This document shows, piece by piece, positions 8,487 to 32,192 of a stretch of 33,597 nucleotides of DNA (position 1 is its first letter; the number at the start of each line of letters is the position of its first letter). The translations under genes and the position numbers were made by a program. Under the pieces are notes generated by a model that was not told the origin of the DNA, ran no database searches, and saw nothing but the letters and a program-made list of their open reading frames with translations. Location of the stretch: positions 1-33,597 of the forward strand of contig JASHSS010000007.1 in assembly GCA_030038565.1 (NCBI GenBank). The letters run 5' to 3'. Source of the DNA: Bryobacteraceae bacterium. GTDB taxonomy: Bacteria; Acidobacteriota; Terriglobia; Bryobacterales; Bryobacteraceae.

Positions 8487-10748
<2,262 letters not shown>

Positions 10749-10755
10749 GAGCGTA

Positions 10756-12915
10756 ATGCCACCGAGGCTCAATATGCGGACCCTCTGGATAGCGCTCGCG
10801 GCCTTGGCGACGGCCCTGCCGGCATTGGCGCAGCCGGTTCTTCGGAAGCAGGATTGGCCTGCCTACGGCCGCGATCCTGGTGGGACGCGCTATTCGCCGC
10901 TCGACCAGATCAATACCGGAAACGTAAACCTACTCCAGCGGGCATGGGTCTACCACACCGGCGAGCACGGCCGGGCATTTGAAATCACGCCCATCGTGGT
11001 GGACGGCACGCTCTACTTCGCCACGCAAAATCAGAAAATCGTGGCCCTGGAAGCCGACACCGGCAGGGAGATATGGAAATTCGATCCGCATTCGAATGCG
11101 CGGGAAATTCGCGGTGTCGCCTATTGGCCCGGCCAGGAGTCAACCGCGCCTCGGATTCTCTTCGGCACCGGTGACGGCCGACTGATGGCGCTCGAAGCGA
11201 GGACAGGCCGTCCCGCGGCCGGGTTCGGCGACAACGGGGTGGTGAATCTAAAAGCCGGGATCACGGACAAGTTCCCGCAAGCGGCGTATGCGGTTACGTC
11301 CCCGCCCACCATCTATCGCAGGGTGGTGATCGTCGGCCCCAGCACCCAGGAGGGTCCCAGCCTGGGGCCGAGCGGCGATCCGCGCGCTTACGATGTGCGA
11401 ACCGGCAAGCTCCTGTGGAGGTTTCACACCGTTCCGCAACCCGGCGAACCAGGCAACCAGACGTGGGGCGCCGGCGGCTGGAAGGACCGCTCGGGTCCCA
11501 GCCAGTGGGGTCCGGCAACCATCGACACCGAGCGAGGCATGGTCTTCCTGCCGATCGGCAATCCAGCGGACAGTTTCTACGGCGCCGATCGGAAGGGAAC
11601 CAATCTCTACGCGAACTGCGTCGTGGCGCTCGACGCCCTCAGCGGCAAGCTGCTCTGGTATTACCAACTCGTACACCACGACATCTGGGATTACGATGTG
11701 GCCGCTCCTCCGGCGCTGGTGGAAGTGAAACGCGGGGGCCGGACCATTCCGGCGGTGGCCGAGACGACCAAGATGGGGCTTCTCTTCATTCTCGACCGGC
11801 TGACCGGCCAGCCGGTTTTCGGGGCAGTCGAGCGGCCCGTCCCGCGCAGTGATACACCCGGAGAGGAATCGTGGCCGACGCAGCCGTTCCCGCTGAAGCC
11901 GCCTCCGCTCTCGCGCATGAGCCTGACCAAAGACGAGATCACCACGCGCACGCCGGAAGCCCACCGGTTCTGCGAAGAATGGTTCAGCCGGCTGCGCCAG
12001 GAAGGCCCCTACACGCCCTTCGGAACGACGCCCTCGCTGCTGTTTCCGGGAACCATGGGCGGTGGAAACTGGGGCGGCGTGTCTTTCGATCCGAAATTGG
12101 GATACACCTTCGTAAACACCAGCAGCCTCGGCGGAACCGGGCGCATGGTGCCGGCAAATCCGGGAGCGCCCATGGCCTGGCGCAACGACGGCGGCTACCA
12201 GCGCTTTATCGATCCGGATGGCTACCCCTGCCAGCAGCCGCCGTGGGGAGAGCTGACCGCGGTCAATGCCTCCGGCGACATCGCATGGCGCGTGCCCCTG
12301 GGGAGTTATGACGAATTAGAAGCGCAGGGATTCAGACATGCCGGCACGCCCAATATGGGAGGTTCTATCGCCACCGCCGGCGGCCTGGTTTTCATCGGCG
12401 CGACCACCGATTCGAAGTTCCGGGCCTTCGATTCGCGGACCGGCAGGGAGCTGTGGATGGCGCAACTCGACGCCACGGCCGACACCATCCCCGTGACTTA
12501 CCAGGGCCGCGACGGCAGACAATACGTCGTGATTGCCGCCGGCGGCACGAACCGCTTCCGGATGCTCGCGGGAACAGCCGATGAAATCGCCGATGCGCTG
12601 ATCGCGTTCGCGCTGCCGGGCGGGACGGCTACTTCGCCGGCGCAGGCGACTGGGGCCGCTCGCCCACCCGTCCCCAACAGATTGAGCCCAGCGCAGCTCA
12701 AAGCCAACGGCGCGCCGCTTCCCGAAGGAGCGGGGAGAGACATTGTCGTGCGGATGTGCACGGTCTGCCACGGCACAGCGGTCTTCTCGAATGTGCGGAT
12801 GAGCCGGACGGGTTGGGAGGACGAAGTCGCCGCCATGGTGGACCGCGGCGCGGCCGGAAGCCCCCAGGAGGTCCACGCCGTGACCGATTACCTGGTGAAG
12901 AACTTCGGTAAGTAG
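10756..12915 (+). CDS. PQQ-dependent (quinoprotein) dehydrogenase with C-terminal cytochrome c motif
   Basis: MPPRLNMRTLWIALAALATALPALAQ signal; DWPAYGRDPGGTRYSPLDQINTGNVNLLQRAWVYHTGE, YQLVHHDIWDYDVAAPPALVEV, FPGTMGGGNWGGVSFDP; C-terminal MCTVCHGTAVF (CxxCH). Confidence 0.95.
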   Translation: MPPRLNMRTLWIALAALATALPALAQPVLRKQDWPAYGRDPGGTRYSPLDQINTGNVNLLQRAWVYHTGEHGRAFEITPIVVDGTLYFATQNQKIVALEADTGREIWKFDPHSNAREIRGVAYWPGQESTAPRILFGTGDGRLMALEARTGRPAAGFGDNGVVNLKAGITDKFPQAAYAVTSPPTIYRRVVIVGPSTQEGPSLGPSGDPRAYDVRTGKLLWRFHTVPQPGEPGNQTWGAGGWKDRSGPSQWGPATIDTERGMVFLPIGNPADSFYGADRKGTNLYANCVVALDALSGKLLWYYQLVHHDIWDYDVAAPPALVEVKRGGRTIPAVAETTKMGLLFILDRLTGQPVFGAVERPVPRSDTPGEESWPTQPFPLKPPPLSRMSLTKDEITTRTPEAHRFCEEWFSRLRQEGPYTPFGTTPSLLFPGTMGGGNWGGVSFDPKLGYTFVNTSSLGGTGRMVPANPGAPMAWRNDGGYQRFIDPDGYPCQQPPWGELTAVNASGDIAWRVPLGSYDELEAQGFRHAGTPNMGGSIATAGGLVFIGATTDSKFRAFDSRTGRELWMAQLDATADTIPVTYQGRDGRQYVVIAAGGTNRFRMLAGTADEIADALIAFALPGGTATSPAQATGAARPPVPNRLSPAQLKANGAPLPEGAGRDIVVRMCTVCHGTAVFSNVRMSRTGWEDEVAAMVDRGAAGSPQEVHAVTDYLVKNFGK

Positions 12916-12953: not shown

Positions 12954-13020
12954 AAGCGTCGTACGCTGTGGGCTGCAGCCAGTGTGAGGCTCCCCCAGGC
13001 GCGAACTCGCGTCATTGGGA

Positions 13021-13026
13021 TATACT
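13021..13026 (+). promoter_or_regulatory. Putative -10 (TATACT) upstream of the exported aldolase gene
   Basis: GGGATATACTTTCTCC 36 nt before ATG 13062; no convincing -35. Confidence 0.3.
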
Positions 13027-13061
13027 TTCTCCACCGTTCTGTACGCGAAAGGATGTACACC

Positions 13062-13973
13062 ATGAAATCGATGGCGACCCTGTTCGTTGCGCTTCCCGCA
13101 ACGGCGCTTCTCTGCTTGCCGGCGCCGTCACAACCGGCCGCGCAGGGAGGGCAATCCAAGCCCACCCTGTATAACACAACCAAGCTGAAGTTGCTGCAGG
13201 GGAGGCAGGTCTTCAGCTACACCCAAAGCAAGTTCGATATCGCCGGAAACTGCGAAGCCGCCAGGCATTACGACTACACGTGGTACGAAATGCAACACAG
13301 CACGCTGGAGTTCAGGGATATCGAGGCCATGATCGCCGCCTGCCCGCACGCCGGCGCCATTCCCATGATCCGCCTGCCCGACGCGCAGGAATGGCATATC
13401 CAGCACGCCACCGATATCGGCGCCTTGGGCGTGATCATCCCCACGGTCGACGACGTGGACCGCGCGCGCGAAGCCGCCAAATGGGCGCGGTACCCGCCCG
13501 TCGCCCGGCGCAGTTCGGGTCAGGGACAGGCTGCCGCCATCTGGGGCATCAACGGCATCGATTACCACCAGACGATCAATGACAACATGCTGGTGGTGAT
13601 CATGATCGAAACACCTACCGGTGTGGCCAACGCCTATGACATCGCTTCCGTCCCCGGCGTCGACGTGGTGATCATCGGCAATAACGACCTGAGCCAATTC
13701 TCCGGGTACTCGCAGAACAGCGACAAGTATTGGGAGTTGGTGACCAAGGTCCACGACGATGTGCTGCGCGCCGGCAAGATTTTCGGCCAGGCTAACGCCA
13801 ACTATGCTAAGGGGCCTCTCAGCCAGGATGCCAGGTTTTTCCAGAACGGTCCGTCCAACGATGGCTGGACGCCGCCGGGCCGGGGTGGCCGGGGCGCAAA
13901 TCCCAGCGCGCCGCCTCCAGGTGAGGACGGACCTGTCACCGCCGGCCGGCGCGGCCGGGGCCAACTAAGGTAG
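13062..13973 (+). CDS. HpcH/HpaI aldolase / citrate-lyase-beta-like protein with signal peptide
   Basis: MKSMATLFVALPATALLCLPAPSQPAAQ signal; YTWYEMQHSTLEF, IPMIRLPD, MIETPTGVANAYDIASVPGVDVVIIGNNDLSQFSG correspond to the His, Arg and metal-ligand Glu/Asp motifs of HpaI-type aldolases. Gly/Arg-rich C-terminus. Confidence 0.85.
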   Translation: MKSMATLFVALPATALLCLPAPSQPAAQGGQSKPTLYNTTKLKLLQGRQVFSYTQSKFDIAGNCEAARHYDYTWYEMQHSTLEFRDIEAMIAACPHAGAIPMIRLPDAQEWHIQHATDIGALGVIIPTVDDVDRAREAAKWARYPPVARRSSGQGQAAAIWGINGIDYHQTINDNMLVVIMIETPTGVANAYDIASVPGVDVVIIGNNDLSQFSGYSQNSDKYWELVTKVHDDVLRAGKIFGQANANYAKGPLSQDARFFQNGPSNDGWTPPGRGGRGANPSAPPPGEDGPVTAGRRGRGQLR

Positions 13974-14235: not shown

Positions 14236-17200
14236 ATGAAAACGAGAATCAGTCTTGTGCTTCTGCTCGCGCTGGCGCTCACTCTGATTGGTGCCGCGTT
14301 GACGATGGCGCAACAGCCCGGGACGGGAACCAATGCTGCTCCGCCGCGGCCGAAGGGTCCATGTGACATCTACGCCGCCGCGGGCGACCCCTGCGTGGCC
14401 GCCCACAGCACCACCCGCGCGCTGTACGCCTCCTACAACGGCCCGCTCTACCAGGTCCTGCGCCAGTCGGACGGCAGGACCTTGAACATCGGCGTCGTCC
14501 GGCCCGCCGCCGCACCGGTCCCGGATGGGGGCGGATACGCCAACGCGGCCGCGCAGGACGCGTTCTGCGCCAACACCTACTGCTGGATCAGCGCCATCTA
14601 CGACCAATCCCCCAAGCACAACGACCTCGTCCAGGCGCCCCGCGGCGGATTCAGCGGCCCCGCCATGGGAGGGTTCAACAATCTCCCGGTGGCCGACATG
14701 GCGCCGATTACGATCATGGGCCACAAGGCCTACGGCGTCTTCATCGCGCCGGGTATGGGCTTGCGGCAGAACGACGTGAAGGGCACCGCGGTAGACGACC
14801 AGGCCCAGGGGCAGTACTGGGTGGTGAACGGCCAACACTATAACTCCGGCTGCTGCTTCGACTACGGCAACGCCGAAATCGATAGCCGCGACGACGACAA
14901 CGGCACCATGGAGACCACCTACTACGGCAGTGCCGGCGCCTGGTATCACGGGCCTTCCCCGGGCCCCTGGATCATGACCGATCAGGAGAACAACCTGGTG
15001 GGCTGCGTCAACCCGGATGAAACCAAAGGCTGCGCCAACCTGCCGAACATCGACTGGAGATTCGTGACCGGGATGGCCAAGGGCGAGCCGCATCACTGGA
15101 CCTCGATGGGCGGCGATGCGCAACACGGCGACCTGTCGGTCATGTTCGACGGACCCCGCGTCAACATCACCTACGACCCCATGCGTAAGCAGGGAGCCAT
15201 CCTCCTGGGAAACGGCGGCGACAACAGCAACAGCTCGCAGGGCACCTTCTATGAAGGCGCCATGACGGCCGCGGGATCCTTCCCGACGAATGTCACCGAC
15301 CAGCTAGTCCACGCCAACGTGGTGGCCGCAAAGTACGACGTGCCGCTGCTGAGCCTGGCGCCGGGCGCCGAGGGCGTTCCGGCAACCGCCACGCCGCCGG
15401 GTCTACAGACGTTCTCCCCGGGGTCGTCCGAGGATACCACCGTAACGTTCACCAATACGACGGGGGCGCCCGCGGTGGGCGTCGAGCTGAGCATTTCCGT
15501 GCCCAGGCAGTGGACCTCCGTCGTTGCGGGTAAAACCGGGACGTCGATGACGTTCGCCGGCCCGGTCGCGCCGGGCTCGATCGTGAGCGCCACCTTCAAG
15601 GTCACCTCTGGGCCGGCGGCCTTTAATGGCGACCTGACCGGCAACGCACGCTGGACCAACCAGACGACCGGAAGGAAGCAATCCGAGACAACCGCCGGGA
15701 AGGTGCGGAACGTCAGCCCCATCAAGATCAACGAATTTCGCGTGAGTTCTCCCGGTAACCCGACGAACTCGTTCATCGAACTGTACAACGCCGCCGCCGG
15801 CGCCATCGACATCTCCAACTGGACCCTCACCGAGCACCAGACGCAGCAGGCCATCTTCTCGACGGTGAAGGTCCCTGCCGGGACGAAGCTCGCCGCCGGC
15901 GGCTTCTACCTGCTCGGCCTCTCCAACTCCGGGCTGGCGGCGGCCGCGCGCAAGGGCGAGACCACCATCTACGTCAGGAGCACTGCCGGAATGAAGGTGG
16001 GCGACTCAATCGACATCGACACCGATTCCGGCGCCGAGGTCCGCAAGATTGTAAGCATCGGGACGCCGGCCGGCAACCATACCACTCTGTGGCAACCGCT
16101 CCCCGAGGGTCCGGTGATCACGATCCCCGCCGGCGCCACCAACGTGCCCGTCACGAGCGTGGCCGGCTTCACGGCCGGGGAGAAGATCGCCCTCGGCTAC
16201 GGCGCCACTTACCCCGCTGTCGGCAGAACCATGGAGCACTTCGAAGTGGCCACGGTCACCGCCGTTGGCAAGCCGGGCACACAAGCCTGGCTGGGGGCGG
16301 ATGCACACGCCGGCGCCACCAACATCAAGGTGACGTCGGTCGCCAACATCTCGGCCGGTGACAAGATCCGGCTGGACATCGATAGCGTTGGCCATGGGAT
16401 CGAGACCGTTACGGTGACGAAGGTCGGCACGCAAGCGAGCCGTGGGGCGCTTTCGGCTGAGGCGGGCGCCGGCGCGACTACTATCCAAGTCCAAATCCGC
16501 GGCGCGAACGGTTTCGCCGTGGGCGGCAAGATGACCGTTGGCACGCCCGCCACCCACGAAACGGTCACCATCACCGGGGTTCGCGCCTCGGGACCAGGGA
16601 GCGGCGTGAGCGTGACCTTTACCCCGCCCCTCGCCAAGGCGCATCTCGATCGTGAATTTGTAGTGGCGCATGGCACGGGCCTCGACCTGGCTGCCCCGCT
16701 GAAGTTCAACCACGCGGCCAACCTCCCCTTCAGCGTTCGGGGAACGGGAATCAACTTCCAGCCTGCGACGGCCTTTGCTCACTCGAGCAACGAGCCTGTC
16801 CAGCCGCTTGGCACAGGTATCACGCTAGACAAGCCACTGGTCAAGGATCACGCCATCGACACGGCGGTGCGTGACGCCGCGGTGACGACCGCGGGCTACC
16901 AGGGGACCCCGGCGCCCAACCACTGGTTCGGCGGCCCCGCCCTCTCACCCGCTGCCGGTAACATGGTGCTGCGAACTGCCTCCGGCCTGGTCGTGGACAG
17001 CCTCAACTACGGGTTGCTCGTCGACCCGTGGGCCGCCGAGGGTTACCAGGCTGCTTCCGGATCCGGACAGAGTGGCTGCCGCGTGCCTAGCCCCGGCGCG
17101 GGCGGTGGCTTCGGCGGGCGGGGCGCTCCGACGGCGGAGATCGACAGGAGCGCCGGCCGCTTCCCGGACGGCGCCGATACCGACAGCAACTGCACCGACT

Positions 17201-17691
17201 TCCTGTTGCAGCCCGCCACCATCCTGCCTGGCGGCGCCGCCGCCGGCGCGACTAATATCAAGGTCGCCAGCGTGGCAGACTTTGCCGCCGGCCAGACGAT
17301 TATGATCGATACAGGCGCGAACCTCGAAACCGCCATCATCGCCACGGTTGGCACCGCCGGCGCCACCACCCAGAGCGCCGCCACCGAGGAGGGAGCGACC
17401 GTAATCCCCGTCGCCGGCGCCGTAGGCTTTGCCGCCGGCCAGACCATCACCCTTGATAGTGGCGCGAACCATGAGACTGCCGTGGTCGTGTCCGCCGGCG
17501 GCGGCAGGGGCGGCGCCAGAATCAGCGTCGCCGCGCCGCTTACTCGGGCGCACGCCGCCGGCGCACCGATCTCCGGCAGCGGCATCACCCTTAATGCTGC
17601 GTTGACCCGGACTCACGCCGGCGGGGCGCAGGTATCGAGCGACCTTCCCACGCCCGGCGCCCCCAACAAGTATTCCAGGAGACCGAATTAG
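14236..17691 (+). CDS. GH54 alpha-L-arabinofuranosidase with NEW3-like and lamin-tail-like (LTD) regions and internal repeat arrays
   Basis: Signal MKTRISLVLLLALALTLIGAALTMAQ; GPCDIYAAAGDPCVAAHSTTRALYASYNGPLYQVLRQSDG, AQDAFCANTYCWISAIYDQS, HYNSGCCFDYGNAEIDS, GGDNSNSSQGTFYEGAMT match AbfB/GH54 catalytic domains; later PIKINEFRV..NSFIELYNAAAGAIDISNWTL is LTD-like. Confidence 0.9.
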   Translation: MKTRISLVLLLALALTLIGAALTMAQQPGTGTNAAPPRPKGPCDIYAAAGDPCVAAHSTTRALYASYNGPLYQVLRQSDGRTLNIGVVRPAAAPVPDGGGYANAAAQDAFCANTYCWISAIYDQSPKHNDLVQAPRGGFSGPAMGGFNNLPVADMAPITIMGHKAYGVFIAPGMGLRQNDVKGTAVDDQAQGQYWVVNGQHYNSGCCFDYGNAEIDSRDDDNGTMETTYYGSAGAWYHGPSPGPWIMTDQENNLVGCVNPDETKGCANLPNIDWRFVTGMAKGEPHHWTSMGGDAQHGDLSVMFDGPRVNITYDPMRKQGAILLGNGGDNSNSSQGTFYEGAMTAAGSFPTNVTDQLVHANVVAAKYDVPLLSLAPGAEGVPATATPPGLQTFSPGSSEDTTVTFTNTTGAPAVGVELSISVPRQWTSVVAGKTGTSMTFAGPVAPGSIVSATFKVTSGPAAFNGDLTGNARWTNQTTGRKQSETTAGKVRNVSPIKINEFRVSSPGNPTNSFIELYNAAAGAIDISNWTLTEHQTQQAIFSTVKVPAGTKLAAGGFYLLGLSNSGLAAAARKGETTIYVRSTAGMKVGDSIDIDTDSGAEVRKIVSIGTPAGNHTTLWQPLPEGPVITIPAGATNVPVTSVAGFTAGEKIALGYGATYPAVGRTMEHFEVATVTAVGKPGTQAWLGADAHAGATNIKVTSVANISAGDKIRLDIDSVGHGIETVTVTKVGTQASRGALSAEAGAGATTIQVQIRGANGFAVGGKMTVGTPATHETVTITGVRASGPGSGVSVTFTPPLAKAHLDREFVVAHGTGLDLAAPLKFNHAANLPFSVRGTGINFQPATAFAHSSNEPVQPLGTGITLDKPLVKDHAIDTAVRDAAVTTAGYQGTPAPNHWFGGPALSPAAGNMVLRTASGLVVDSLNYGLLVDPWAAEGYQAASGSGQSGCRVPSPGAGGGFGGRGAPTAEIDRSAGRFPDGADTDSNCTDFLLQPATILPGGAAAGATNIKVASVADFAAGQTIMIDTGANLETAIIATVGTAGATTQSAATEEGATVIPVAGAVGFAAGQTITLDSGANHETAVVVSAGGGRGGARISVAAPLTRAHAAGAPISGSGITLNAALTRTHAGGAQVSSDLPTPGAPNKYSRRPN
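15951..16910 (+). repeat. Protein-level repeat array 1 (about four ~45-aa units) inside the LTD-like domain
   Basis: KGETTIYVRSTAGMKVGDSIDIDTDSG..; AGATNVPVTSVAGFTAGEKIALG..; AGATNIKVTSVANISAGDKIRLDID..; AGATTIQVQIRGANGFAVGGKMTVG.. Confidence 0.75.
17215..17645 (+). repeat. Protein-level repeat array 2 (two units) near the C-terminus
   Basis: AGATNIKVASVADFAAGQTIMIDTGANLETAIIATVGTAG; EGATVIPVAGAVGFAAGQTITLDSGANHETAVVVSAG, followed by PLTRAHAAGAPISGSGITLNAALTRTHAGG. Confidence 0.75.
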
Positions 17692-17769: not shown

Positions 17770-19335
17770 TTAGACCTTCAGTTCCCAGCCCTTGCGGAGG
17801 AACGGCTTGAGATAGCGGTTGGCTTCCTCGCTATTGGTGAAGCGCCGTTTGTTCCCGTCCCACATGAGCTTTCCGGGTACACGCAGCGCGATGGCCCCCA
17901 TCGCCAGCCACTCGATATATTTCGTTGCGACGGCGAAGTCCGAGACACCCGGCGCCCCGCCTTTGCAGGCGCGAATCCAGTCCTGCTGGTGATTGACGCC
18001 CCTCTGCAGCATCTGCGGCGGCAACTTGTATTCCGCCCAGCGCGAGGCCGGCAGCAGCCAGACGCCTTCCCCGCGGGACGTCGTGGCCATGTAGCCCTTC
18101 GATCCGACAAACACGGAGCCGTTGCCGGGCGCGCGCATTTTCGGATCCTGCGACGCGCCCGGCGGAATACCGCCTGCACCTGCGCCGCCCCGCCCGCGGC
18201 CGCCGCCCGAAGGAATCGCGCCCCCGCGGCCCTGTGCCGGCATGGCTCTGCCACCCGCCGGCGGTTGCGCGCCAACTTGTATGCCATCGCCCTGACCGAA
18301 CGGCCGGCCCTTCTCGGCCAGATTGTTCATCGGCGGGAAGAGGTGATCGTCTTCGGCCATACCCGGCGGGTTCTGGAAGTCGCCGCGCATGTTCTGATAG
18401 GTGTGGATGGTGACCGGAGGCATGCTGCCCCGCGCCGGAAACTCGAAGACCATGTGGGCACGCAATGGCCACAGCCACTGGTTCTTGCCTTCCACGTACA
18501 CGCACTCCACGCTGATCGGCGCAGCCTTGTCGAGTTGCAGCGCCAGGTGGGCCGGTCCGAGGACGTGCACCAGCCAATCCCCCAGCGATCCGCCGGTCGA
18601 AAAATCCATAAAAGCGCGCCATTGATTGGTCATCAACGGATTGAAGTCCCGCGGCTCGGCGCAGCCCAGCCAGAGGTCCCAATCCAGCGTAGGAGGAACG
18701 GGCGTCGATTCGGGCCCGGTAGCCGGGAGATTCGGCTGTCCACCGTAGATGCTGCCGGTCCAGGCGTGCAGTTCCCTGACCTCGCCGATCTCACCCGACC
18801 AGAAGATCTCGCAAGCCGTTTTGGTGGCTTCGTGATTCCAGCCCTGGTTGCCCATCTGGGTCGCCACTTTATATTTCACCGCTGCATCGGCCAAAAGCTG
18901 CGATTCCGGCGGCGTGCGGGTCAACGGCTTTTCGCAGTAGACGTGCTTGCCATGCTGCATGGCCAGCAGCGCCACGGGGGTGTGCATATGATCCGGCGTC
19001 GCGACCATCACCGCGTCGATGTTCTTGGCCTCGGCGTCGAACATCTTGCGGTAGTCTTTGTACTTTTTGGCGTCGGGATATTGAGCGAAACCGCGGGCGG
19101 AGCGCTGTTCGTCCACGTCGCAAAGCGCCACAATGTTCTCGGTGGCGGCGGCGCCGATCAGAATCTGCGGACCGCGAGTGCCCACTCCCACCGCACCGAT
19201 ATGAAGCTTTTCGTTAGGAGACTTGTAGCCCAGCGACGAAAGAGATGGCGTGCTGCCGAATCCACCCCGCGGGACGGCGCCCGCCAGAAGTGTGCCATAG
19301 AAGAAATAGCGCCTTGAAAATCGGAAATCGTTCAC
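17770..19335 (-). CDS. Gfo/Idh/MocA family oxidoreductase with Tat-like signal
   Basis: MNDFRFSRRYFFYGTLLAGAVPRGGFG...KLHIGAVGVGTRGPQIL...NIVALCDVDEQRS...IDAVMVATPDHMHTPVALLAMQHGKHVYCEKPLTRTPPES: Rossmann fold and EKP motif. Confidence 0.95.
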   Translation of the reverse strand: MNDFRFSRRYFFYGTLLAGAVPRGGFGSTPSLSSLGYKSPNEKLHIGAVGVGTRGPQILIGAAATENIVALCDVDEQRSARGFAQYPDAKKYKDYRKMFDAEAKNIDAVMVATPDHMHTPVALLAMQHGKHVYCEKPLTRTPPESQLLADAAVKYKVATQMGNQGWNHEATKTACEIFWSGEIGEVRELHAWTGSIYGGQPNLPATGPESTPVPPTLDWDLWLGCAEPRDFNPLMTNQWRAFMDFSTGGSLGDWLVHVLGPAHLALQLDKAAPISVECVYVEGKNQWLWPLRAHMVFEFPARGSMPPVTIHTYQNMRGDFQNPPGMAEDDHLFPPMNNLAEKGRPFGQGDGIQVGAQPPAGGRAMPAQGRGGAIPSGGGRGRGGAGAGGIPPGASQDPKMRAPGNGSVFVGSKGYMATTSRGEGVWLLPASRWAEYKLPPQMLQRGVNHQQDWIRACKGGAPGVSDFAVATKYIEWLAMGAIALRVPGKLMWDGNKRRFTNSEEANRYLKPFLRKGWELKV

Positions 19336-19362: not shown

Positions 19363-20334
19363 TCAGCGGCCTCGGCGACCCGCTCCCGGAGGGTTACTCA
19401 GGGCGTTCAGCCCGTACTTATAATTCGGATCCATGGCCGCAATGTCGCTGCGGTAGGCAACCACAGTGGCGGACGGAAATTCGCCCGGGACCTTTTGCGT
19501 GACCTTCCCGGAGGCCGCCCACTCCGTTCCGCGCTGGAAGGTGACAATGAAGCCGACGCAACTGAGGGCATTGATATCGTGGCCCATGGCGGTGTGAAAT
19601 ACACGTCCCTTACCGTAGGCGACCGTGAGCAGCATCGGCTCATCCCGGCCGGTTCCGTGATTCTCGGGATCCGAATAGGCGGTCGCCAGGACGGTCATGT
19701 TCTTGCCGGGCCCACGCAGACTGTTGTACAACTCATCGCCCTGATGCATCCAGACGTGCGGGAGCCCCTTGGTAATCGGATGGTTCGCATCCCGCACGGT
19801 AATTGCGAACGGCACGCGATTGCCATGATTTCCGGCGCGGCCGGGCGTATCGTCCGAGACCAGTTTCCCATCCTTGAAGTACCACAGGGGTCCCGACTTT
19901 TCGGTTCGGCCCCGCCATCCCCCGATCCCGATCATCTCGTTAAACGCCGCCCATCCTCCGAATGCATTGTCGGCGGCGTGAACCGTTACCAGGCCGCCGC
20001 CTCCACGCACGTAAGACTCGAAGGCGGCTTTGAGCGAGTCGGGCCAACGTTCGTCGGGAGCGTCGTAGTTCATCACGATGACCTGGTATTTGCCGAACTC
20101 CGGTTTGAAGGCGTTGAAATCGCCGTCCCGGCCAGGCGCGGTCACGACGTCCACCTGGAAGAGACCGGTTTCCTCGAGTTCCTTCTTGAGCACCGGGGTG
20201 GTCATCTGCCAGGCGTGATAGGGTCCGCCGCTTTCGCCATCCAGAAGCATCACCTGGAAACGGCCCGCGGCATGTGCCGGAAACTGAAATCCGAGCGCCG
20301 CCGGGATGATGGAAACCAAAAGAAGTCGGTTCAT
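19363..20334 (-). CDS. ThuA-like (trehalose utilization) domain protein, secreted
   Basis: Start [112 protein letters not shown] are ThuA-like. Confidence 0.9.
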
Positions 20335-20417
20335 TTTTCCCTGCCAACCGATCACTGTAACGAAAAGCACGGATTTTCGCTAGGGGGCGAGAAGCGAGCC
20401 GCCCTCGCTCTTCCCGC

Positions 20418-28737: not shown

Positions 28738-28865
28738 TGCCTCACGCATCATGGTGTGACAGGCGCGTCTTCAGGGCAGCGAATCATGCGGTCGGGGACC
28801 TAGCCTAGACGCCGGTCGAGGCCCGCCGGCCGCCGCGCCGCCCTCCCCGTCGCACTCCTCCCGAT

Positions 28866-28895
28866 TTGACCCGCAAGGGACCGATTCGATACACT
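28866..28895 (+). promoter_or_regulatory. Putative sigma70-type promoter of the BNR-repeat gene
   Basis: TTGACC (28866-28871), 18-nt spacer, TACACT (28890-28895), about 21 nt before ATG 28917. Confidence 0.4.
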
Positions 28896-28916
28896 TCGAG
28901 CGATTCCCTCAGGAGG

Positions 28917-31900
28917 ATGGCCGTGTTGAATTGTCTTGGTAAGACGCTGGTTCCCTTGGTGTCCGCCGCGCTGGCGTTGACCCCGCTTTCCGCACAACGC
29001 CGGGGCGGAGGCGGCGCCGCCGTGCCCCAGGACCTGGAGTTCCGCTTCATGGGTCCCGCCGTGGGGAACCGCATCGCCTCCGCCACCGGTGTGCCCGGCG
29101 ACCCCCACACTTATTACGCCGGCGCGGCCTCGGGCGGCGTGTGGAAATCCACCGATGGCGGCGCCCACTTTGCGCCCGTGTTCGACAGCCAGCCCGTCCA
29201 GGCCATCGGCGCCATTACGGTGGCCTCCTCCGATCCCAAAACCGTCTGGGTGGGCACGGGCGAGGCTTGGGCCATCCGCGACAGCGACATGATGGGCGAC
29301 GGGGTCTACAAATCCACCGATGCCGGCCAGACCTGGAGCCACATGGGACTCGAAGAAACCGGCCGCATCGCCCGCATCCTCATCCATCCCACCAATCCCG
29401 ATATCGTTTATGTGTGCGCCGCCGGCCGGCTCACCGGACCACAGCAGGAGCGCGGCGTCTACAAGACCACCGACGGCGGCAAGACGTGGCAGCGTTCGCT
29501 CTTCGTCAGCCCCAACGCCGGCTGCTCCGGCCTCACCATGGATGCCCACGATCCCAACACCCTGTTCGCCGGCGCCTGGGAAGTGGTCATGCACACCTAC
29601 GCCATGCTCAGCGGCGGACCGGGCAGCGGCGTCTACGTCACCCACGATGGCGGCGCCACCTGGAACAAAATCGAAGGCCACGGCATGCCCAAGCCACCCG
29701 TGGGCAAGGTGGATGTGGCCGTTGCGCCGGGCGATTCCAAGCGCGTCTACGCGCTCATTCAGACCGCCGACCAGGGCTCCATCTGGCGCTCCGACGATGG
29801 CGGCGTCAACTGGACCAACGGAAGCTGGCAGCGAGCCCTCATCGGCCGCGCCGGCTACTACATTCACCTGGCCGTGTCTCCCTCCAACCCCGACGAGGTG
29901 CTGGTGGCCAACAGCAGTTTCTGGCTCTCCACCGATGGCGGCAAATCCTTCCGCACCGTGCCCTGGGGCGGCGACACCCACGATATCTGGATGGACCCCA
30001 CCGACGGCAAGCGCATCATCGTCACCCACGACGGCGGCATGTACGTCACCAACGACCACGGCAGCACTTCCATCCGCGTCACCCTACCCATTGGGCAGAT
30101 GTACCACGTGGCCGTGGATAACGACGTGCCGTACAAAATTTACGGCAACATGCAGGACGACGGCACTATGCGCGGCCTTTCCACCACCCAGGAAGCCGGC
30201 CCCAACGTGCCCGGCCAGAACGGCGGCGGTCGCGGTGGTTTTGGCGGAGGCGGCTTTGGCGGGCGCGGTGGTTTCGGCGGCGTCGGCCCCTGGGAGCACA
30301 ACCTGGGCGGATGCGAATCGGGCTTCACCCTCCCCGATGTGACCGACACCAACATCGTGTGGGCCTCCTGCTACGGCAACGAAGTTACGCGCTACGACGA
30401 CCGCACCAAGGTAGCTCGCTCCGTCAGCCCGTGGCTGCACACGCTCGATTCTCCGCCCGATAAGCCCAAGTACCGCTGCCACTGGACCGCGCCTCTGGCC
30501 ATCGACCCGTTCGACCATAACGTGGTCTATTACGGCTGCCAGATGGTCCTGCGGACCTCCAACGGCGGCGTGAGCTGGGTCGAGTTGAGCCCCGATCTTT
30601 CCACTAAGGATCCCAGCCGCATCATTTCTTCCGGCGGCATCGTGGGCGATAACCTCGGCCAGTTCTACGGCGAGGTGGTCTTCTCGATCGCCCCGTCGGA
30701 AGTGCAGAAAGGCCTCATCTGGGCCGGCACCAACGATGGTAAGGTGTGGTACACCTCCGACGCCGGCAAAACCTGGAATGACGTCACCAAAAACATCGCC
30801 GGCCTTCCCGCCTGGGGCACGGTCTCCAAGATCGAGCCATCCCATTTCGATCCCGCCACAGCTTACATCTGCGTCGATTTCCACCTGATGGACAACCGCG
30901 ATCCGTTCATCTACAAGACCAGCGATTTCGGCAAGACGTGGAAGAAGATCACCGGCAACCTGCCCACCGGGCCGCTGGCTTACGCGCGGGTGATCGCCGA
31001 GAATCCCAATAAGAAAGGCATGCTCTTCGTCGGCACCGGAAACCAGTTGTATTACTCCATGGATGACGGCGCCACTTACCAGCCGCTCGAGCGCGGCTTG
31101 CCGCATGCGCCGGTTTCCTGGATCGTGGTGCAGAAGCAAGCCCATGACCTGGTAGTCTCCACTTACGGCCGCGGCTTTTACATCATGGAAGATATTTCGC
31201 CGCTGGAACAGGGCGCCATGGAATCCACCGCCACCGCCGCCGTGCAATTAGTCGCGCCGCGCCCGGCTTACCGCTTGATCCGCGGCGGCAACGCCTTGTT
31301 GAGCTTTGTGGCCCGGGGGGCGCCCGGCGGGCCCGCCGAAGTCGAGATCCACGACAGCGCCGGAACCCTGGTCCGAAAGCTTGGTCCACTCACCGCCCAC
31401 GCCGGCCTGAATCGCTTCACCTGGGATATGCATTATGAGCCGCCGCGCCTGGTGGCCCTTCGCACCACTCCGCCCGAGGACCCGCACATCTGGGAAGAGC
31501 CGCGCTTCCAGAATACCGATACCCGTCCGATTACCCATTGGGGCCTCCAGCAGGCCGAGATCGGCCCCATCGCCGCTCCCGGCAGATACAGCGTAAGTCT
31601 TACCGTCGGCGGCCAGACTTATACCCAACCGCTCGAAGTGCGGCGCAATCCCGACAGCCACGGCACCGAATCGGAGCTGCAATCTTCCGTCCGCCTCCAG
31701 CTCAAGGTGCGCGACGACATCACCTCGGTTTCCGATATGACCAATCAGATCGAGTGGATGCGCAAACAGCTCGAAGATCAGCAGAAGACCGTCACGGGTC
31801 GCGCGGAGTTGATCAAGTTAATGGACACCATCGACACCCGCCTGAAGGACGTCGAGTACCGCTTGATTACCCGCGCCGACGCGCTCAGCGACGATAAGTA

Positions 31901-32192
31901 CTTCCAGGAGTCGTATAACCTGTACCAGAATTTCATCTGGTTGAACGGTGAAATCGGCACCGGAGCCGGAGATGTGGCCGGATCGGGCGATTGGGGACAG
32001 ACCGAAACCGCCATCGGCTTGGTGCTCGACCTGGAGCGCCAGTTAGCCGCGGTCAAGACACAGTATAAGAATGTTATGGACAAGGACGTCCCGGCTTACA
32101 ATGCCCAGATTAAGAACGCCGGGGTGAAGCCTCTCGAAACCACCGGCGCCCCGCTGCCTCCGGCCCGCACGGGCGGCCGCGGCGGGCAGTAA
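28917..32192 (+). CDS. Secreted BNR/sortilin-like (VPS10-type) beta-propeller protein
   Basis: SD AGGAGG; MAVLNCLGKTLVPLVSAALALTPLSAQRRGG signal; repeated S-x-D-x-G-x-x-W Asp-box/BNR motifs: KSTDGGAHF, KSTDAGQTWSH, KTTDGGKTWQR, VTHDGGATWNK, RSDDGGVNWTN, YTSDAGKTWND, KTSDFGKTWKK. Confidence 0.93.
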   Translation: MAVLNCLGKTLVPLVSAALALTPLSAQRRGGGGAAVPQDLEFRFMGPAVGNRIASATGVPGDPHTYYAGAASGGVWKSTDGGAHFAPVFDSQPVQAIGAITVASSDPKTVWVGTGEAWAIRDSDMMGDGVYKSTDAGQTWSHMGLEETGRIARILIHPTNPDIVYVCAAGRLTGPQQERGVYKTTDGGKTWQRSLFVSPNAGCSGLTMDAHDPNTLFAGAWEVVMHTYAMLSGGPGSGVYVTHDGGATWNKIEGHGMPKPPVGKVDVAVAPGDSKRVYALIQTADQGSIWRSDDGGVNWTNGSWQRALIGRAGYYIHLAVSPSNPDEVLVANSSFWLSTDGGKSFRTVPWGGDTHDIWMDPTDGKRIIVTHDGGMYVTNDHGSTSIRVTLPIGQMYHVAVDNDVPYKIYGNMQDDGTMRGLSTTQEAGPNVPGQNGGGRGGFGGGGFGGRGGFGGVGPWEHNLGGCESGFTLPDVTDTNIVWASCYGNEVTRYDDRTKVARSVSPWLHTLDSPPDKPKYRCHWTAPLAIDPFDHNVVYYGCQMVLRTSNGGVSWVELSPDLSTKDPSRIISSGGIVGDNLGQFYGEVVFSIAPSEVQKGLIWAGTNDGKVWYTSDAGKTWNDVTKNIAGLPAWGTVSKIEPSHFDPATAYICVDFHLMDNRDPFIYKTSDFGKTWKKITGNLPTGPLAYARVIAENPNKKGMLFVGTGNQLYYSMDDGATYQPLERGLPHAPVSWIVVQKQAHDLVVSTYGRGFYIMEDISPLEQGAMESTATAAVQLVAPRPAYRLIRGGNALLSFVARGAPGGPAEVEIHDSAGTLVRKLGPLTAHAGLNRFTWDMHYEPPRLVALRTTPPEDPHIWEEPRFQNTDTRPITHWGLQQAEIGPIAAPGRYSVSLTVGGQTYTQPLEVRRNPDSHGTESELQSSVRLQLKVRDDITSVSDMTNQIEWMRKQLEDQQKTVTGRAELIKLMDTIDTRLKDVEYRLITRADALSDDKYFQESYNLYQNFIWLNGEIGTGAGDVAGSGDWGQTETAIGLVLDLERQLAAVKTQYKNVMDKDVPAYNAQIKNAGVKPLETTGAPLPPARTGGRGGQ

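Follow-up and report, generated by a model that had tools for sequence, protein, structure and literature searches.

The window, a 33,597-nucleotide stretch of a Bryobacteraceae contig, contains a gene predicted to encode a GH54 catalytic domain, a NEW3 domain, and a lamin tail domain (LTD) whose parts are separated by two repeat arrays. The gene, its parts, and genes around it are as follows.

10663-12915, + strand: PQQ-dependent dehydrogenase
12984-13973, + strand: HpcH/HpaI aldolase
14236..17691, + strand: coding sequence (1151 aa) for GH54, NEW3, and a split LTD with two repeat arrays; kept in relatives
14236..14310, + strand: probable Sec signal peptide MKTRISLVLLLALALTLIGAALTMA, read by eye; lipobox cysteine absent
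14359..15336, + strand: GH54 catalytic domain, residues 42-367 (PF09206; PDB 6sxt/1wd3, 1e-98)
15415..15633, + strand: NPCBM-associated NEW3 domain, residues 394-466 (PF10633, 28.7 bits, cut-off 24.4)
15712..15936, + strand: LTD part 1 (INEFR ... FYLLGLSNSG), residues 493-567 (Pfam, excision test, Foldseek)
15949..16665, + strand: insert 1 units U1-U4, residues 572-810
16666..16878, + strand: insert 1 hairpins H1-H3 (GTGLDLAAPL.., GTGINFQP.., GTGITLDKPL..), residues 811-881
16912..17025, + strand: LTD part 2, NHWFGGPALSPAAGNMVLRTASGLVVDSLNYG and flanks, residues 893-930 (excision, profile alignments)
17026..17160, + strand: variable LTD loop with invariant C948, residues 931-975 (conservation analysis)
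17161..17217, + strand: LTD part 2 continued, GRFPDGADTDSNCTDFLLQ region, residues 976-994 (profile alignment, conservation)
17239..17574, + strand: insert 2 units U5-U6, residues 1002-1113
17575..17643, + strand: insert 2 hairpin H4, GSGITLNAALTRTHAGGAQV, residues 1114-1136
17644..17679, + strand: LTD terminal motif LPTPGAPNKYSR, residues 1137-1148
17770-19335, - strand: GFO/IDH/MocA oxidoreductase
19363-20370, - strand: ThuA-like protein
28809-32189, + strand: large Sortilin-Vps10 and BNR-repeat protein

The open reading frame and all of the peptides quoted in the original prediction lie where it had placed them. Its proposed check by domain calls returned, in Pfam, GH54, NEW3, a partial LTD, and a marginal FliMN_C match on the first repeat. 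The GH54 domain is full length (PF09206, 396 bits against a cut-off of 25, profile positions 1 to 314 of 315), and its closest solved structures in a PDB sequence search are those of fungal AbfB (E = 1e-98). In the PDB alignment, E251, D329, and C206-C207 coincide with the catalytic Glu, the catalytic Asp, and the vicinal cysteine pair of fungal AbfB, which we take to be the nucleophile, the acid/base, and a vicinal disulfide, respectively. The NEW3 (NPCBM_assoc) match likewise exceeds its Pfam cut-off, and the N-terminal signal-like segment is conserved at the start of relatives. An NCBIfam scan gave no match above cut-off, and no surface-anchoring domain was detected in the protein. As judged from its sequence, the gene probably encodes an active, secreted GH54 alpha-L-arabinofuranosidase of a soil acidobacterium, which, once exported, would act on arabinan or arabinoxylan as a retaining enzyme and free terminal arabinofuranose. 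No arabinan-degradation cluster was obvious among the gene's neighbors in the window, nor was a conserved or shared CAZyme operon seen among the neighboring genes sampled.

The two inserts comprise six repeat units of 50 to 66 residues (U1 to U4 and U5 to U6) and four hairpins of about 24 residues (H1 to H4), those of insert 1 being of the type 'GTGIxLxxPLxxxH'. The units of insert 1 span residues 572 to 628 (U1), 631 to 688 (U2), 691 to 741 (U3), and 745 to 810 (U4). What had been read as "about four" repeats at 15951-16910 resolves into U1 to U4 plus three hairpins, and the "two more" at 17215-17645 correspond to U5, U6, and the fourth hairpin. The repeats are statistically real: pairwise alignments of the six units, with 500 shuffles per pair, yielded z scores of 3.0 to 15.7, and for 11 of the 15 pairs none of the 500 shuffles reached the observed score, whereas one did for each of three pairs and six did for the weakest (U3/U4). 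By the same test, the N-terminal half of the LTD does not resemble the units (z of -1.5 to 1.0). Within the host genome, the unit profile matches at six positions, every one of them inside the GH54-LTD gene. TRF detected no tandem repeat in the DNA of the gene, indicating that the repeats are old and have diverged at the DNA level. Searches of PDB sequences with the repeat profile and with the LTD region returned no credible relative, and the K1-lyase Rider family (PF24149) scored 10.3 bits in the repeats, below its cut-off of 27.

On the whole protein, the LTD profile PF00932 matches residues 493 to 582 (42.5 bits against a cut-off of 34.3, profile positions 5 to 96 of 109), which places the protein in this family and carries the match into the first repeat. 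The N-terminal half alone matches profile positions 4 to 70. When this half is joined to residues 894 to 935, the match extends over positions 5 to 108 of 109 at 49.5 bits, as opposed to 44.3 bits over positions 5 to 71 when the C-terminal half is shuffled (a single shuffle, so that the effect size is indicative only). The family profile from which the inserts have been excised aligns over 131 of 142 columns with eight uninterrupted LTDs, which come from four proteins of relatives at the family level, and its score of 68.7 falls to 56.3 with the N-terminal half alone and to 56.2 with the columns of the C-terminal part shuffled, again a single and thus indicative shuffle. All LTD strands are present and in order, in alignments both to PF00932 and to the uninterrupted-LTD profile, only after the inserts are excised. 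These alignments place insert 1 between the strand ending in FYLLGL and the region beginning with WFGGP, and insert 2 immediately before the closing TPGAPN. The sequence tests, which draw on one protein family, support the nesting of the repeats in two loops of one LTD.

An AlphaFold2 model of residues 486 to 1151, based on 81 sequences, has a mean pLDDT of 86.4 and a pTM of 0.81. Foldseek aligned this model with lamin tail domains over 66 to 76 columns (rmsd of 2.2 to 4.9), an extent that fits the N-terminal half alone, and matched other regions of the model to phage depolymerases and tail proteins. The originally proposed single LTD with nested repeats is partly supported, by collinearity after excision, and the fold comparison extends over only these 66 to 76 columns. 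Modeled alone, insert 2 has a pLDDT of 91.0 and a pTM of 0.65, and Foldseek places it near small barrels from phage depolymerases, tailspikes, and tail proteins and from GH110A (TMq of about 0.36 to 0.48; rmsd of 3.5 to 5.5 for most, and about 10 for 7vul). Only one match has an E value of <0.001, so that these values do not establish kinship of the units with phage barrels; the modeled units resemble the small-barrel fold of the phage proteins, and we offer this as a reading and not as demonstrated kinship.

The protein is likely to be a GH54 arabinofuranosidase with a NEW3 domain and a single LTD, two loops of which are extended by barrel arrays that would serve as arms. Small beta-barrel units (four in one loop and two in the other) would be capped by beta-hairpins (three and one) to form two rigid, possibly sugar-binding arms that project from the LTD, and these may increase the contact of the enzyme with insoluble polysaccharide or the cell surface. 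Alternatively, the barrels could be passive spacers or stiffeners that arose through repeat duplication and have no binding role, a reading that accepts the nesting and that we regard as rather unlikely. It accords with the dispensability of U4, which 9 of the 81 aligned copies lack and 69 clearly have, with the lower conservation of insert 2 (majority-residue fractions of 0.68 to 0.72), and with the resemblance of the units to barrels carried as decorations by phage enzymes and tail proteins. However, U2, U3, H1, and H2 are conserved to the level of the LTD (0.79 to 0.86, against 0.80 for its N-terminal part), and the inserts hold 24 near-invariant polar or aromatic residues (e.g., W619, H720, and H849). 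Element lengths are also nearly fixed across the 81 copies, where H4 is missing once and every element other than U4 and H4 is always retained. Insert 1, whose U2, U3, H1, and H2 are conserved like the LTD, would be the likelier functional surface, and insert 2 the likelier structural element.

A second alternative, which we hold to be improbable, is that the two LTD pieces do not form one fold: a truncated N-terminal LTD would be followed by independent repeat modules, and WFGGP...DF would be a separate small domain containing a C948-C986 disulfide. Such a disulfide in the C-terminal part is possible; both cysteines are invariant across the aligned family. The short alignment with lamin tails in Foldseek is compatible with separate domains, as are pLDDT values of <50 at residues 936-946 and 957-964 and the behavior of the C-terminal part alone, which has no Pfam match and is correctly placed in uninterrupted LTDs by a weak match (P = 0.0013). 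Separate domains are, however, at odds with the end-to-end alignment of the excised profile with uninterrupted LTDs, in which shuffling of the C-terminal part abolishes the gain, with the agreement of strand order and the terminal TPGAPN, and with the single order in which relatives with complete genes hold all pieces. Together with the tail, the C-terminal part falls in the right place in uninterrupted LTDs at P = 1.7e-4. In the uninterrupted LTD L114, the C-terminal profile likewise finds its correct place, which lies about 25 residues beyond the N-terminal part (E = 5.8e-5). The search for homologous LTDs that the original prediction had suggested recovered both relatives with inserts and uninterrupted LTDs, and no relative showing the LTD pieces as separate domains.

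That the repeats are SpoA/FliN-type domains, as might be read from a match of PF01052 (FliMN_C) to U1 (25.1 bits, cut-off 23.8), is so improbable that we reject it, because the match spans about 32 of 73 profile positions in U1 only (no repeat unit having a full-length SpoA match), drops below the cut-off when the inserts are scanned alone, and is accompanied by an NCBIfam fliN score of 13 bits against a cut-off of 84, and because the 50 best Foldseek matches of insert 2 include no FliM, FliN, or SpoA structure.

The same layout occurs in relatives within the host's family, and the architecture recurs at 46 to 79% identity over the LTD region, indicating that it is neither an assembly artefact nor a product of chance. 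A scan of genome contigs yielded 160 relatives, from which 80 loci were retained, and those with enough upstream sequence also carry the GH54 domain. Most relatives are Acidobacteriota; the other labels are Alphaproteobacteria (including the isolate Rhizomicrobium electricum), Bacteroidales, Sedimentisphaerales, Oleiharenicola, Gemmatimonadetes, and Rhodanobacteraceae, many of them from metagenome bins and possibly wrong. A quick tree contains 8 changes of phylum label, with a minimum possible of 5, which suggests horizontal transfer without proving it. Viral contigs gave pattern matches and no relative, and a plasmid search yielded nothing beyond GH54-only matches and one copy of the LTD region, from Novosphingobium.

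Several loci carry variant or additional copies. On plasmid pP6W1 of Novosphingobium sp. P6W (L031:8022-9923), a split LTD without GH54 is annotated as a hypothetical protein, and the ISKra4-family transposase gene directly upstream makes it look like an IS-truncated copy. Two tandem GH54-LTD genes occur at L177:1-7501 (G393:C5), and in both the reading frame diverges from the family within U6, at nearly the same glycine-rich position, through either a sequencing error or a shared frameshift. At L006/L027, L037, L109, and L111, a diverged second GH54-LTD gene adjoins the first; such second copies are about 40 to 55% identical to the first over the domains compared.

The unit profile has weaker, isolated matches in other proteins of the relatives and the phylum. 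The clearest, in a GH78-type alpha-L-rhamnosidase (L176:1352-5371, G048:C52), comprises barrel units and hairpins between Ig_Rha78A_N (112-224) and Bac_rhamnosid_N (546-722). By these Pfam bounds the array lies where two domains meet, and it does not count as a further demonstrated instance of nesting. A single barrel-unit motif, AGSTSIQVLNAAGWRVGDEIVL, is present in three proteins (L154, L156, and L203) that appear to be secreted and G8/beta-helix-like, and weak unit-profile matches fall in L183, L186, and L187, of which two are pseudopilin-like and one is phage-tail-sheath-like, as read by eye from their first residues. As a conjecture with little probability, we suggest that the barrel and hairpin array is a portable module that has been inserted, as projecting sugar-binding arms, at loops or junctions in secreted glycosidases of unrelated kinds (the split LTD and the L176 rhamnosidase), and that it may represent a class of carbohydrate-binding module not yet recognised.

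The architecture is genuine, conserved, and apparently nested, and its conservation in dozens of relatives marks it as a real but modest variation on a known enzyme architecture. Domains within domains are well known; an LTD hosting two small-barrel arrays is, as far as we found, undescribed. The NEW3 domain, the hairpin elements, and the two invariant cysteines C948 and C986 go beyond the original prediction. Standard annotation catches only the first part of the LTD, leaving the C-terminal part and nearly all of the inserts unreported. Because members of the family are widespread in soil Acidobacteriota and also occur in other phyla, its accessory region bears on the attack of these organisms on plant arabinans, and the inserts supply a tangible candidate for a binding module of a new kind, amenable to expression and testing.

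A 2021 study of GH54 (PMC8155123) tabulates ArabFuran-catal with RICIN, LTD, NPCBM_assoc, and RPT1 (internal repeat), and its 'Bacterium I' group includes Acidobacteria; the present protein very probably belongs to this group, and both the domain combination and the internal repeats were already known. The architecture, originally called unusual, is therefore unusual in its nesting, which was not found in the accessible part of PMC8155123 or in the other literature searched, but it is family-wide instead of peculiar to this gene, and its domain combination was on record. Literature searches on the 'rider domain' and on AkAbfB residues found nothing.

The catalytic domain and the aligned catalytic and vicinal cysteine residues are common to this protein and GH54 AbfB of Aspergillus (PDB 1wd3/2d43/6sxt). 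The fungal enzymes carry a C-terminal CBM42 (AbfB), whereas the present protein, in which Pfam finds no AbfB domain, has NEW3 and a split LTD with barrel arrays. The N-terminal part of the LTD matches the folds of lamin A/C (1ifr) and lamin B1 (3umn) with rmsd of 2.2 to 4.9, and the uninterrupted bacterial LTDs L116, L117, L119, and L134 are collinear with the family profile after excision. Relative to the lamin tail domains of PF00932, two loops of the present LTD, with their repeats, run to about 324 and 142 residues; insert profiles detected no such arrays among the 30 further LTD loci examined. The best structural neighbors of insert 2 are Klebsiella K1 lyase (7w1c), P560 (7vul), phi92 gp150 (6e0v), LKA1 gp49 (4ru4), and GH110A (9beh). 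The small barrels of the phage proteins are an appendage of beta-helix enzymes, whereas those of the present protein would form arrays hosted in the loops of an LTD.
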